Assembly: GCF_000377345.1 (NCBI RefSeq)
Contig: NZ_KB898040.1
Coordinates: forward strand, 62,001 to 126,000
Length of the DNA stretch: 64,000 nucleotides
Reading direction: 5' to 3'
Source: Thioalkalivibrio sp. ALJ16
GTDB taxonomy: Bacteria; Pseudomonadota; Gammaproteobacteria; Ectothiorhodospirales; Ectothiorhodospiraceae
Each line of letters begins with the position of its first letter. Within the stretch, counting starts at the first letter, position 1. Positions 488 to 16,062 of the stretch are shown piece after piece. The notes beneath the pieces are model-generated. The model was not told where the DNA came from. It saw only the letters and a list, made by a program, of their open reading frames with translations, and searched no databases. The position numbers and the translations under genes were made by a program.

Positions 488-1455
488 GGTATGCCCCGGG
501 GGTGTGGCGTCGGCACCACGGGCAGACTGGCGGCGACCGCCGCGGCCAGGGACTCGCCGCTGTCGAAGGCGGCCTCGACCCGCGCGCCCAGGGCCCAGTC
601 GCCGCATGCGCCGAGACGCCGGTCGGCATCCCACAGGCAGGGCTGGTCGGCGGCCTGTTCGACCCGGGCGTACAGCCAGCGGTGGACCTGTCGATGGACC
701 GGCTCCGCCTCGCCCACGTAGGGTCGCAGGGCCTGCGTGAGGGGGGCGACCAGTGTCTCCGGGTCCGACTCGATGTGCGCGCGCGACCATTCGGAACCCG
801 CGTGGGCTACTACGGTCTCGGGCCGTGCTGCGCGCCCGGGTTTCGTGTGGTTGCGTGCAATCCAGGCGAGCGGGCCGCTCTCAGGCTCCAGGGCCTCCCC
901 GATCCCGCTCAGGGGTCGGTCGAAGGCCGCCATCAGTGTGATCGTGGGTGCGTAGCGCACTGCGTCCAGCGCGGGCAGTTCTACACCCGAGGGACGCGAC
1001 AGGTCCGCGGCCTGGGGGGCCGGAATGGCCAGCAGTACCGCCGCGAATGCGGCCTCGAGGTCGGCGGGGCTGGGGGCTGGATCGGCCTGCAGGCGCCAGC
1101 CGTCGGCGGTGGGGATCAGTTGTGTGATTCGGCATTCGCGATGGATGGTCAGGCCACGGGCCAGGGCGTGCGCTGGCGCCGTCATGTCCGGGCAGCCCAC
1201 CAGGCGGCCGGGTGCCCACTCGGCGGCGGCCCCGAGGGTCTGCCATTCGCGGGCCCGCGCCTGCAGCGAGGGCCCGCGCGCGGTGAAGTACTGGGCCCCA
1301 TGGTCGAAGCGCAGTGGCCCCGCGCGCCGCGTCGCCATGCGTCCGCCCAGCCCGCGGCTTTTCTCGAATACGGTGCAGGCGTAGCCGCGAGCGGCCAGGT
1401 CGCGCGCGGCCGCCAGCCCGGCGATGCCGGCCCCGATGACGGCGATGCGGGTCAT
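484..1455 (-). CDS. Renalase-like NAD(P)/FAD-dependent amine-oxidase-fold flavoprotein
   Basis: 323 residues. The N-terminus carries a Rossmann dinucleotide motif, AVIGAGIAGLAAARDL, followed by the FAD-binding continuation VFEKSRGLGGRMATRR, and the C-terminus has the second FAD contact region around CGDWALGARVEAAFDSG. This is the architecture of bacterial renalase-like oxidoreductases, which oxidise reduced nicotinamide isomers or amines; the substrate is not deducible here. Its start overlaps the stop of the SDR gene, and its stop overlaps the start of the photolyase-domain gene, each as ATGA, so the three are probably translated as a unit. Genes of this type commonly sit beside photolyases in proteobacteria, which suggests a role in photo-oxidative stress (inference). 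Confidence 0.82.
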   Translation of the reverse strand: MTRIAVIGAGIAGLAAARDLAARGYACTVFEKSRGLGGRMATRRAGPLRFDHGAQYFTARGPSLQARAREWQTLGAAAEWAPGRLVGCPDMTAPAHALARGLTIHRECRITQLIPTADGWRLQADPAPSPADLEAAFAAVLLAIPAPQAADLSRPSGVELPALDAVRYAPTITLMAAFDRPLSGIGEALEPESGPLAWIARNHTKPGRAARPETVVAHAGSEWSRAHIESDPETLVAPLTQALRPYVGEAEPVHRQVHRWLYARVEQAADQPCLWDADRRLGACGDWALGARVEAAFDSGESLAAAVAASLPVVPTPHPRGIP

Positions 1456-10683: not shown

Positions 10684-10834
10684 GCCCCGCGGCAGTCCGG
10701 CTGCCAGGCCGTGCGCAAAAACCTGGTTCAGCACCCGCCGTCCCGTTGGAAGAAGGCATGGCGGGTGACTACGCTCCTGTGGAAGGCATTCAGCCCTTAC
10801 AGCGCATTGCCGCAAAGGCATGCAAGGAGCAGGC

Positions 10835-11839
10835 ATGAAGATTGACCAGTTGGTTGAGACCGCCGAGGCGATGGTGGCGCCCGGCAAGGGCATCATCGCC
10901 ATTGATGAATCCACCGGTACGATTGCCAAGCGCCTGGCAGCGGTCGGAGTGGAGAACTCGGAGGAAAACCGGCGCACCTACCGCGAGCTGCTGCTGACCA
11001 CTCCGGGTCTGAACGAATACATCTCCGGGGCGATCCTCTACGACGAGACCATTCGCCAGTCCACCCGGGACGGCCGCCCGTTCGTCGACGTGATGCGGGA
11101 GGCCGGCATTCTTCCCGGCATCAAGGTGGATACCGGGGCGAAGGATCTGGCCGGTTTTCCGGGGGAAAAGGTGACCGAGGGCCTGGACGGTCTGCGTGAG
11201 CGCCTGGAGGCGTATGCCGGGATGGGCGCGCGGTTTGCCAAGTGGCGTGCGGTGATCACGATTGGCGAGACCATGCCCACGGACACCTGTATCGAAGCGA
11301 ACGCGCATGCCCTGGCCCGGTATGCGGCGCTGTGTCAGGAGCAGGGGGTAGTGCCCATCGTTGAGCCGGAGGTGCTGATGGACGGGGATCACGACATCGA
11401 GACCTGCTACGGCGTGACCGAGGCCACCCTGCGGGCGGTATTCCGCGCCCTGTACGAACATCACGTATTGCTTGAGGGCACGATCCTGAAGGCGAGCATG
11501 GTGCTGCCCGGGAAGGACTGTCCGGAGCGGGCGGACGCAGAGGACGTCGCGCACGCCACGCTGCGCTGCCTGGAGTCCGCGGTACCGGCCATCCTGCCAG
11601 GCATCGTGTTCCTTTCCGGCGGCCAGAGCGATGCGGATGCGACCCGGCACCTGGACGCGATGAACCGGATCGGCGCGGCACCGTGGCCGCTGTCGTTTTC
11701 CTACGGGCGCGGCATGCAGCAGGCCGCGCTGCAACTGTGGGGGCAGGATATGGCCGCGAACTACGAGAAGGCACAGCAGACTGTGTACGAGCGTGCGCGC
11801 GACAACGGGCTGGCCTCCCAGGGTCGGTATGCGGCCTGA
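10835..11839 (+). CDS. Class I fructose-bisphosphate aldolase
   Basis: 334 residues from ATG 10835, with AAGGAG ending six bases upstream; an upstream in-frame ATG at 10820 is less well placed. The protein is the Schiff-base (eukaryote-like) aldolase that cleaves fructose 1,6-bisphosphate to DHAP and glyceraldehyde 3-phosphate. Evidence: GKGIIAIDESTGTIAKRL, VDTGAKDL, ARFAKWRAVI, the Schiff-base lysine in LEGTILKASMVLPG, and the late block LSGGQSDADATRHLDAMN. No metal-binding class II motifs. In an autotroph it serves glycolysis, gluconeogenesis or the Calvin cycle (context inference). The C-terminus is NGLASQGRYAA; the eukaryotic C-terminal Tyr is not terminal here. Confidence 0.95.
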   Translation: MKIDQLVETAEAMVAPGKGIIAIDESTGTIAKRLAAVGVENSEENRRTYRELLLTTPGLNEYISGAILYDETIRQSTRDGRPFVDVMREAGILPGIKVDTGAKDLAGFPGEKVTEGLDGLRERLEAYAGMGARFAKWRAVITIGETMPTDTCIEANAHALARYAALCQEQGVVPIVEPEVLMDGDHDIETCYGVTEATLRAVFRALYEHHVLLEGTILKASMVLPGKDCPERADAEDVAHATLRCLESAVPAILPGIVFLSGGQSDADATRHLDAMNRIGAAPWPLSFSYGRGMQQAALQLWGQDMAANYEKAQQTVYERARDNGLASQGRYAA

Positions 11840-11873: not shown

Positions 11874-11887
11874 TTGATCTGGATCAA
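11874..11887. promoter_or_regulatory. Perfect FNR/ANR box
   Basis: TTGATCTGGATCAA matches the FNR consensus TTGAT-N4-ATCAA at every defined position. If it acts as a class II activator site (centre at -41.5), transcription on the plus strand would start near 11922, with TAGCCT at 11910-11915 as a weak -10. This is the only perfect FNR half-site pair I noticed in the window. Confidence 0.75.
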
Positions 11888-11921
11888 GAAAAGACGTAGC
11901 GGGCATTACTAGCCTGAAGCG

Positions 11922-12041
11922 GTCGGACTCGACTGCGGGGCCGCGTGGGATGCACGACTCCCCCAGCGTGCGCGCGGTCCGCTCGTTTTCGACGGTGTAT
12001 GTCGCGTCTTGGCCTGCTATCTGCGGATAGCAGGCTTTTTT
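11922..12041 (+). ncRNA. Candidate FNR-controlled small RNA
   Basis: A roughly 120-nt unit bounded by the FNR box with a class II-spaced -10 and by a strong intrinsic terminator, without an open reading frame that looks translated. An interior segment reads ACUCCCCCAG, complementary to GGGGGAG-type Shine-Dalgarno sequences, a feature often seen in small RNAs that block translation. Organisation resembles FnrS (enterobacteria) and PhrS (Pseudomonas), which are FNR/ANR-activated small RNAs, but I see no clear sequence identity with either. The start point is inferred from the box; orientation follows from the terminator T-tract. Alternative: an attenuated 5' leader of soxB. Confidence 0.5.
12012..12041 (+). 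terminator. Intrinsic terminator of the candidate small RNA
   Basis: Perfect 9-bp stem GCCTGCTAT (12012-12020) / ATAGCAGGC (12027-12035), six-base loop, and TTTTTT at 12036-12041. It lies 172 bp after the aldolase stop, far from that gene and upstream of soxB. Confidence 0.88.
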
Positions 12042-12265
12042 GTGTCCGGGCCGGGGAAATGTGAAGCCCCGTCCAAAAATGATGAAAATCGTTAACGTCC
12101 GCGATTGTCCGGAAAAATACGCAAATAAAGCGGAAATATCGGCCAAAAAAGGCGATGCGAGCGGGGCAATGGGGCCCTTGCAGGGAACATTCTGCGGCCA
12201 CGTGCGTCGTGAAGCGGGAAGGACGTTATTGTCCGAAACGATTTAAGCCACCGAGGAGAACGTGA

Positions 12266-13999
12266 ATGAGTCTTACGCGCAGAGAGTTTCTTGAAGCCAT
12301 GGTTGCAGCCAGCGCGGCCGGATTCTCGATGAATGCCTGGGCGGGCGAGAAGGGCAGCTGGCGACCTGCCGAAGCGGATATGTACGACCTCCCGAAGTTC
12401 GGCAACGTGTCGCTGCTGCACTACACCGACTGCCACGCGCAGCTGAAGCCGGTGTACTTCCGCGAGCCGGACGTGAATATCGGCGTGGGGGACATGCAGG
12501 GCAAGCCGCCGGTGCTGGCGGGCAACGCCATACTCGAGTACTTCGACGTGGAACCCGGCACTCCGATGGCGCATGCCATTTCCCATCTGGACTTCAAGTA
12601 CGCCGCGGAGAAATACGGCCGCCTGGGCGGGTTCTCGCATCTGTCCACGCTGGTCAAGAAGCTGCGCGCCGAGCGCCCGAATTCGCTGCTGCTGGACGGC
12701 GGCGATACCTGGCAGGGTACCGCCACCTCGCTGTGGACCGACGGACAGGACATGGTCGACGCCCAGAAGATGCTGGGGATCGACATCATGGTGGGGCACT
12801 GGGAGTTCACCTTCGGGGCCGAACGCGTGACCGAGGTGGTCGAAAACGAGTTCAAGCCGAACGGCATCGACTTCCTGGCGCAGAACATCGAGGACCGGGA
12901 CTGGGGCGACCCGGTGTTTGATCCCTACACCATCCGCGAGATGAACGGTGTGCCGGTGGCGGTCATCGGTCAGGCGTTCCCGTACACCTCGGTGGCCAAC
13001 CCGGACTACATGTTCCCGGACTGGAGCTTCGGTATCCGTGACCAGAACATGCAGCGTATGGTCGACGAGTGCCGCGAGAAGGGTGCGAAGGTCGTGGTGA
13101 TCCTGTCGCACAACGGCATGGTGACCGACATGGAAATGGCGCGTCGCCTGCGCGATGTGGACGTGATCATGGGTGGTCATACGCATGATGCGGTCCCGGG
13201 CGCGATGGAGATCGAGAATGCCGATGGTGGCCGTACCCTGGTGACCAATGCCGGCTCGAATGGCAAGTTCCTCGGCGTGATGGATCTGGACGTGACCGAT
13301 CGCGGCATCCGCGACTACAAGTTCACCCTGCTGCCGGTGTTCTCCAACCTGATCGAGCCGGATGCGGATATGGAAGAACACATCCGCAAGGTGCGCGAGC
13401 CGTACGAGGACAAGCTGAACGAGGAACTGGCTGTTACCGAGGGCGTGCTGTACCGCCGCGGCAACTTCAACGGCACGTTTGACGAGGTCATCATGGACGC
13501 GATGATCAAGAAGATGGATGCCGAGGTGGCGCTGTCTCCGGGCTTCCGCTGGGGTATCAGCGTGCTGCCGGGCAAGCCGATCACCTTCGAGGAGCTGATG
13601 ACCCAGACGGCGACCACCTATTCGGAGACGCAGCGCAACGAGATGACCGGTGCGCAGCTGAAGAACGCGCTGGAGGATGTGGCCAACTCGATCTTCAACT
13701 CCAACCCCTACCACCACCGCGGTGGCGACATGGTGCGTACCGCCGGTATCGAGTACACCATCGACCCGCACGAGTCGATGGGGAGCCGAATCAGCGACAT
13801 GTACATCAATGGCGAGCCGGTGGATGCGGACAAGAACTACGTGGTCGCCGGTTGGGCCAACGTCCATGAGCCGCTGGATACCGACCCGGTCTGGGATGTG
13901 GTCGCTGACTACCTGCGCGAGCAGGACACGATCCGGCCCGGCAAGCCGTACCTGCCGAAGCTGAAAAACGTGGAAGGGGACCCCGGTCTGGCGCGCTAG
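12266..13999 (+). CDS. soxB: Thiosulfohydrolase SoxB
   Basis: 577 residues. SoxB is the periplasmic dimanganese hydrolase that removes sulfate from SoxY-bound cysteine S-thiosulfonate during thiosulfate oxidation. The N-terminus TRREFLEAMVAASAAGFSMNAWA is a twin-arginine signal, fitting folded export. The metallophosphatase/5'-nucleotidase fold is shown by LLHYTDCHAQLKPVY, LLLDGGDTWQGTATSLWT, VGHWEFTFG and VILSHNGMVTD...MGGHTHDA. GDTWQGT and GHWEFTFG are SoxB signatures. The gene stands alone: no soxA, X, Y, Z, C or D within the window. Start supported by GAGGAG. A strong terminator follows within 50 bp, so it is probably monocistronic. Confidence 0.97.
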   Translation: MSLTRREFLEAMVAASAAGFSMNAWAGEKGSWRPAEADMYDLPKFGNVSLLHYTDCHAQLKPVYFREPDVNIGVGDMQGKPPVLAGNAILEYFDVEPGTPMAHAISHLDFKYAAEKYGRLGGFSHLSTLVKKLRAERPNSLLLDGGDTWQGTATSLWTDGQDMVDAQKMLGIDIMVGHWEFTFGAERVTEVVENEFKPNGIDFLAQNIEDRDWGDPVFDPYTIREMNGVPVAVIGQAFPYTSVANPDYMFPDWSFGIRDQNMQRMVDECREKGAKVVVILSHNGMVTDMEMARRLRDVDVIMGGHTHDAVPGAMEIENADGGRTLVTNAGSNGKFLGVMDLDVTDRGIRDYKFTLLPVFSNLIEPDADMEEHIRKVREPYEDKLNEELAVTEGVLYRRGNFNGTFDEVIMDAMIKKMDAEVALSPGFRWGISVLPGKPITFEELMTQTATTYSETQRNEMTGAQLKNALEDVANSIFNSNPYHHRGGDMVRTAGIEYTIDPHESMGSRISDMYINGEPVDADKNYVVAGWANVHEPLDTDPVWDVVADYLREQDTIRPGKPYLPKLKNVEGDPGLAR

Positions 14000-15701: not shown

Positions 15702-16062
15702 TGGTGGAGGCGGCGGGAATCGAACCCGCGTCCGCAGGACCTCCGCCTTCGGCTCTACATGCTTATTCTGTCTTTGAGTTTAACCAGCCACTACCCGACA
15801 GGCAGGGAATGCAACTGGCGATCCCGGTTGAGTTTTAATGGATCCACGCCGGGCGCGCTTCACCACGAGCTTATGAGAGTCGACGCCCGATACTGGACGC
15901 ATAAGCACGGCTCCAGTCGGACGGCATCTACCGGTTTTTAAGCGGCGAGTGCGTAGTTGTCGTCGTTGGCAACTATTTTTTTGCAGTGATTTTAACGAGG
16001 TTCACCACATCCTCGGCATGCACCTAAGGTTTCGCGACCCGCGTCGAAGCCAAGTCGCCCCC
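15702..16062 (-). ncRNA. ssrA: Transfer-messenger RNA (tmRNA)
   Basis: 361 nt. The tRNA-like ends pair as GGGGGCG (5') with CGCCUCC (3', one G-U), followed by discriminator A and an encoded CCA; the T arm is GCGGGTTCGATTCCCGC. The internal reading frame begins at resume codon GCC (15970-15968) and encodes tag ANDDNYALAA then UAA (15940-15938), nearly identical to the E. coli tag. tmRNA with SmpB rescues ribosomes stalled on broken mRNAs and tags the product for ClpXP. No smpB occurs in the window. Confidence 0.97.

Follow-up and report, generated by a model that had tools for sequence, protein, structure and literature searches.

Between the genes for a class I fructose-bisphosphate aldolase and the thiosulfohydrolase SoxB, the window (the whole 64,000-nt stretch of Thioalkalivibrio sp. 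ALJ16 DNA analysed here) contains an interval, 11874–12041, that is almost certainly a functional gene for a conserved, FNR-type small RNA (sRNA) of about 120 nt, judging from its sequence. The parts of the predicted gene and its neighbours are listed in Table 1; bases 11919–11921 of the 5′ arm of helix P1 lie upstream of the predicted +1. Elsewhere in the window, a tmRNA gene (RF00023) occupies 15702–16062 on the reverse strand.

Table 1. Features of the predicted sRNA locus and its flanks, in window coordinates
Feature	Position	Strand	Basis or remark
FNR box TTGATCTGGATCAA, class II position	11874..11887	+	Pattern match; TTGATNNNNATCA[AC] in 15/15 homologues
-10 hexamer TAGCCT	11910..11915	+	TANNNT in 15/15 homologues
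Predicted small RNA, about 120 nt	11922..12041	+	Start by promoter geometry (+/- 3 nt), end by terminator
5′ arm of closing helix P1	11919..11927	+	Pairs with 11988-11996
3′ arm of helix P1	11988..11996	+	Alignment and pairing counts
C-rich segment ACTCCCCCAG	11957..11966	+	Neither position nor structure conserved
Invariant core GGTGTATGTCGCGTCTTGGCC, probable seed	11994..12014	+	One variable position among 21 (15 genomes)
Intrinsic terminator, 11-pair hairpin (12011-12021 / 12026-12036) and T6	12011..12041	+	
Class I fructose-bisphosphate aldolase (NF033379), upstream neighbour	10820..11839	+	
GGAAC-N16-CGTC element, probable ECF-type promoter of soxB	12184..12208	+	
soxB, thiosulfohydrolase (TIGR04486)	12266..13999	+	Directly 3′ of the sRNA in 15/15 genomes

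The FNR box that the original prediction had called consensus-perfect is present and is the sole exact match in the window. When one mismatch or fewer is allowed, the window has two matches against 0.45 expected, and two were reached by 9 of 100 shuffles; therefore, the box by itself is no proof. The 2.76-Mb genome of the strain contains six exact sites, compared with none for the reversed pattern used as a control, and another of its perfect boxes lies upstream of ccoN, a gene of the cbb3 oxidase. The -10-like hexamer proposed at the class II distance was likewise recovered, and its geometry recurs in all 15 homologues. In the window, the centre of the box lies 29.5 nt before the first base of TAGCCT, which is a class II (-41.5) arrangement and places the predicted +1 at about 11922; among the homologues, this distance is 29.5 nt in 13 and 28.5 nt in two. 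A TTGATNNNNATCAA box centred near -41.5 and accompanied by a -10 hexamer is found in 15/15, with the exact symmetric form in 13 and TTGATCTGCATCAC in the other two. A generic sigma-70 two-hexamer scan of the window listed no promoter at the box and the -10 hexamer; promoters that lack a -35 element are usually missed by such scans. The genome also encodes an FNR (NF008365, 258 bits against a cut-off of 228), in which Cys-X2-Cys-X5-Cys and a fourth Cys, when aligned to a solved FNR, correspond to the four cluster cysteines.

Other perfect FNR boxes of this genome were noted in passing. One precedes a gene for a MauG-like di-heme protein, the family score of which is below the cut-off. At position 1501 of L144 (G000:C2:2011), a perfect box lies between divergent frames, and a flanking frame encodes a protein of 180 aa that matches no NCBIfam model and, by a reading of its sequence, looks hemerythrin-type.

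At the 3′ end, the strong T-tailed terminator claimed for the interval was found as described (Table 1). The predicted fold of the window's RNA is more stable than that of any of 200 dinucleotide shuffles (z -3.36). Its own minimum-energy fold has a local 5′ hairpin in place of P1, for which 8 of 9 pairs in the window's own sequence are standard. In a MAFFT alignment of the 15 sequences, from which the structure itself was derived, 92.5% of the cells of P1, 96.3% of those of the terminator and 94.6% of both together are paired, and the last figure compares with 33.1–51.0% when the helices were slid by 1–3 columns. Changes on both sides of a pair were counted in 22 cells of the two helices (shuffle mean, 8.1; 0/500 shuffles as high) and in five pairs (shuffle mean, 2.9; 12/500 as high), of which four are in the terminator and only one (U-A/C-G) is in P1; further pair types in these counts were not above the shuffles (500/500 as high). 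A stretch of about 120 nt without a credible reading frame had also been proposed, and the comparison bears this out: no small ORF is conserved among the 15 homologues, closed frames within the RNA reach 26 codons at most, in three of them, and no start is common to all. From these sequences, coding is not supported for the RNA interval. With its own predicted promoter, an intrinsic terminator with a U-tail, a length within 50–250 nt and its noncoding character, the unit has several features of an Hfq-dependent base-pairing sRNA, and Hfq is encoded in 15/15 genomes that carry it.

The joint conservation of the box and the terminator, one of the tests named in the original prediction, was found in 15 genomes. 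By both a core pattern and a covariance model, the unit is present in 15 of the 30 genomes of the genus (Thioalkalivibrio, by named matches) and in none of 17 other genomes of the family. Among the 15 genus genomes without it, eight are at least 96% complete and seven are at 58–80% completeness. Searched at the DNA level, 15 of 58 genomes had a match, which in 13 is the sRNA unit; L014, an FNR box in another context, and L015, a short chance match, were rejected as homologues. The core pattern, with up to three mismatches, matched in 16 of 47 family genomes, namely, the 13, L016 and L023 (diverged), and L029, the last of which has neither box nor terminator and was rejected; L032, a second place in G026, is also unrelated to the unit. 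With a covariance model (R1) trained on 10 of the members, all 15 score 57.6–84 bits and the next place 33.3 bits, and ten weaker places proved on reading to be ordinary terminators. Over 369 genomes of the class at an E-value of 1e-4, R1 matched 28, and only G000 (the ALJ16 genome) and G025 exceed 34 bits; of the other 26, the ten with listed loci were checked, and no core 10-mer and no FNR box was found in these loci.

Scanning 84,980 species genomes for the exact pattern returned 12 stretches from Thioalkalivibrio and one from Planctomycetaceae, the latter within a 2,261-codon frame of the opposite strand and taken as a chance match. The named carriers are nine strains with no species assignment, together with T. 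versutus AL2, T. thiocyanoxidans ARh2 and T. halophilus HL17. Nine soxB loci of the family that lack the sRNA were also searched for a diverged copy, with no convincing result (best, 16.2 bits). The original prediction had recognised no homology. This stands with regard to Rfam, where gathering and permissive thresholds gave no credible match for the RNA, but homologues do exist, within Thioalkalivibrio only in the collections searched. The predicted RNA represents a new sRNA family of a known kind, limited to part of one genus.

The most conserved part of the alignment is a 21-nt core, GGTGTATGTCGCGTNTTGGCC, which is identical in the 15 genomes except at N, its one variable position. Mean pairwise identity reaches 0.99 in the core, whereas the middle of the RNA has 0.49 and the median 21-nt block of the 15-sequence alignment 0.56, and the core is the best such block; the sequences are from one genus, and the invariance is partly due to relatedness. 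The first bases of the core are in P1, and it is open in several predicted folds, with part of it in a weak hairpin in some. More conserved than the rest of the RNA and predicted to be unpaired in several folds, the core has the properties expected of a seed. The seed had originally been placed in a CUCCCCC segment. The C-rich segment ACTCCCCCAG is indeed present, but the invariant part is the core, further 3′. A run of at least four C upstream of the core was read in 14 of the 15 sequences (it is absent in L023), and its setting differs among the homologues, being an open loop in some and a stem in others. A core that has remained almost unchanged while the rest of the RNA drifted suggests pairing with other messages for regulation.

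Upstream of the unit, a class I aldolase gene is found in 13 of the 15 genomes (annotated in the window and read from the frame end or from listed frames in the relatives), and G007 and G013 have a divergent tRNA-Ser(GGA) gene instead. The view that the unit is self-contained and unexplained by its neighbours therefore holds, since it is conserved and persists where the upstream gene differs. At L016, an RtT RNA match (1017–1163, reverse strand; 46.1 bits against a gathering threshold of 45) was observed beside the divergent tRNA upstream of the sRNA.

The soxB gene beside the sRNA belongs to a distinct lineage, with 78–100% identity to the window's soxB in the sRNA genomes. Among 47 genomes, this soxB is found at 78% identity or more only in the 15 sRNA-bearing ones, and the 15 sRNA-less genomes of the genus have no soxB above 72% identity. 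G017 (72%) and G036 (73%, another genus) each have a related soxB with no recognisable unit in front of it. Of the sRNA genomes, G007 and G013 have no second soxB, and the other 13 do, at 56–59% identity. In the ALJ16 genome, the two soxB lineages are represented by the window gene and by G000:C12:6513-8270, which are 57% identical. In viral contigs, a scan for soxB turned up no confirmed relative.

The soxB ATG follows the T-run by 169–251 nt in 15/15 genomes, even where the upstream gene changes, and this constancy would suit a regulated 5′ leader of soxB, in which FNR starts transcription and the terminator acts as an attenuator for read-through. Such a gap is long for an attenuator, however, and the spacer between the terminator and soxB is mostly poorly conserved. 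Furthermore, a promoter-like element, GGAAC-N16-CGTC, precedes soxB in 13/13 aldolase-type loci with the same 16-nt spacer; it occurs three times in the whole window, both strands considered. Because this element resembles the consensus of an ECF-sigma promoter, soxB is probably transcribed separately from the sRNA. The core has also stayed invariant while the terminator arms changed, which argues against an alternative pairing between core and terminator. Both tRNA-type loci lack the element, and these two of the 15 keep the leader explanation alive; on balance, we regard it as improbable.

A protein-binding RNA that acts as a CsrA/RsmA sponge through GGA motifs, with no base-pairing, is comparably improbable. 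In the predicted folds, several members have GGA in loops or in AAGGAUC/AGGGAUG contexts, in favour of such a sponge, yet the motifs are few, their positions are not conserved, and in L016 the only GGA is in the terminator loop. The core contains no GGA, and a reading of the alignment and folds of the 15 members found no set of multiple conserved GGA hairpin loops.

No terminator-like site is listed between the aldolase stop codon and the FNR box, so that aldolase transcripts probably also end at 12041. The interval might accordingly be no more than the tail of the aldolase operon (its 3′ end with the terminator), in which an FNR box occurs by chance or for another purpose. This is very unlikely: two genomes keep the box, core and terminator behind a divergent tRNA gene with no aldolase upstream, and the invariant core and the near-fixed spacing between the box and the -10 hexamer (15/15) would be left unexplained. 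A short peptide starting at an ATG inside the core (MSR[LVI]G...), to which the exchange of Leu for Val or Ile codons (CTT/GTT/ATT) at the variable core position might point, can be set aside as the least probable reading. Only 5 of 15 members have a stop for the core-started frame before the RNA ends, and in the other 10 it runs past the terminator to unrelated ends. Another frame through the core, of up to 26 codons, stops in the terminator of several members at the aldolase locus but has no start shared by all, and no Shine-Dalgarno sequence is evident by eye.

Taken together, we consider it likely that the locus encodes a new FNR-activated, base-pairing sRNA of about 120 nt, probably assisted by Hfq. 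As oxygen falls, [4Fe-4S] FNR would activate transcription of the sRNA, and Hfq would bind the transcript through its U-tail. The core segment GUAUGUCGCGUCUUGG, presumably single-stranded between P1 and the terminator, could then pair with one or more mRNAs, and this pairing may lower or raise their translation.

Candidate targets of the proposed base-pairing were sought with the core. For the soxB leader and start, duplex energies ranged from -14.6 to -22.2 in the 15 genomes and were mostly within the spread of the shuffles; the best site, near +31 to +35 of the frame in nine of the 15, is conserved coding sequence. When compared with 2064 random tiles, the soxB start ranked from 3% to 96%, inconsistently among genomes. 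With energies like those of shuffles and such ranks, soxB is not supported as a target. The seat beside soxB is firm as a location, kept in 15/15, and any functional link is putative. The 11-mer ACGCGACATAC, a complement of the core, occurs at 25 places in the 15 genomes, 15 of which are the sRNA itself; none of the other ten recurs in more than two genomes, and one lies upstream of an AAA+ ATPase gene (by reading) in a single genome.

In seven genomes, scans for the 7-mer complements CGCGACA or AGACGCG followed by GGAG and ATG gave 74 and 38 places, while the reversed control patterns gave 30 each. Of the places that recur in at least five of the seven, just one lies outside a reading frame, by reading: it belongs to the leader of a putative porin of the TorF family (6/7). 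Another place recurring in 6/7 lies inside a reading frame, by reading. In the porin leader, complementarity to the core extends over 8 nt in 14 sRNA genomes and over 7 nt in the remaining one, but 14–70% of 2064 random 62-nt tiles from the 15 sRNA-bearing genomes pair with the core at least as well. Moreover, the site is inside a stable hairpin, versions of which are also found in sRNA-less relatives. With its pairing within background and its site in a hairpin, the porin leader is not supported as a target and was kept as a weak lead only. The TorF-family porin gene of the ALJ16 genome has, at about 1590–1672 of L209 (G000:C9), a sigma-54-like -24/-12 element and a leader with a conserved hairpin, GGGTGTCGACTACGCGACAC; partial complementarity to the sRNA core lies in one arm of this hairpin.

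Several sRNAs of oxygen-dependent regulation provide a comparison; the FnrS family is in Rfam, and SicX of Pseudomonas is ANR-dependent. The predicted RNA would share with FnrS activation by FNR and a short transcript that acts at low oxygen, and FnrS and PhrS are nearest to it in working principle. In contrast, the Rfam search gave no FnrS match here, and PhrS and SicX likewise show no sequence relation to it by Rfam, through which all three were compared. In the passages available, FnrS of enterobacteria is described as an FNR-activated short RNA that acts at low oxygen and PhrS of Pseudomonas as an sRNA under ANR (PMC5703892), while SicX is described as a gammaproteobacterial sRNA of the anaerobic response (PMC10247376, in part).

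Within the genus, the accessible part of a 50-genome survey reports the Thioalkalivibrio structured RNAs mgtE, aceE-II, ykoW and smtA 'Soda Lake RNA' (PMC11109978). These resemble the soxB-adjacent sRNA in being genus-restricted noncoding RNAs but differ from it as riboswitch or large-structure candidates beside other genes. The main text of that survey does not mention soxB or aldolase, and its tables hold 10 sRNA and many unnamed candidates, among which the present locus may already figure. Passages of PMC8092127 include RtT sRNA, SRP RNA, RNase P RNA and tmRNA among the regulated noncoding RNAs of two Thioalkalivibrio strains and report lower soxB expression in T. versutus at low temperature; the soxB-adjacent sRNA is not mentioned in these passages. 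RNA-seq data are on record for T. versutus AL2 and T. thiocyanoxidans ARh2 (PMC8092127, PMC5744179). In the part of PMC12285233 available, small RNAs occur only in a reference title. No description was found in the open-access literature on small RNAs of Thioalkalivibrio or of sulfur oxidizers and soxB, as represented mostly by its listings.

A more specific role can be proposed only tentatively, and we think it rather doubtful: a genus-specific, oxygen-responsive sRNA locked to one soxB lineage may couple oxygen to sulfur oxidation or the envelope, such that at low oxygen its core would pair with thiosulfate-oxidation or outer-membrane porin mRNAs and tune electron input to cbb3 capacity. sRNAs under FNR or ANR are known in heterotrophs (FnrS and PhrS), and none was found described for sulfur-oxidising autotrophs in the open-access literature, much of it seen in part. 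If confirmed, the sRNA would be a defined oxygen-dependent RNA regulator in soda-lake sulfur oxidisers, and its tight linkage to one soxB lineage provides a concrete hypothesis for how sulfur oxidation may be matched to oxygen.
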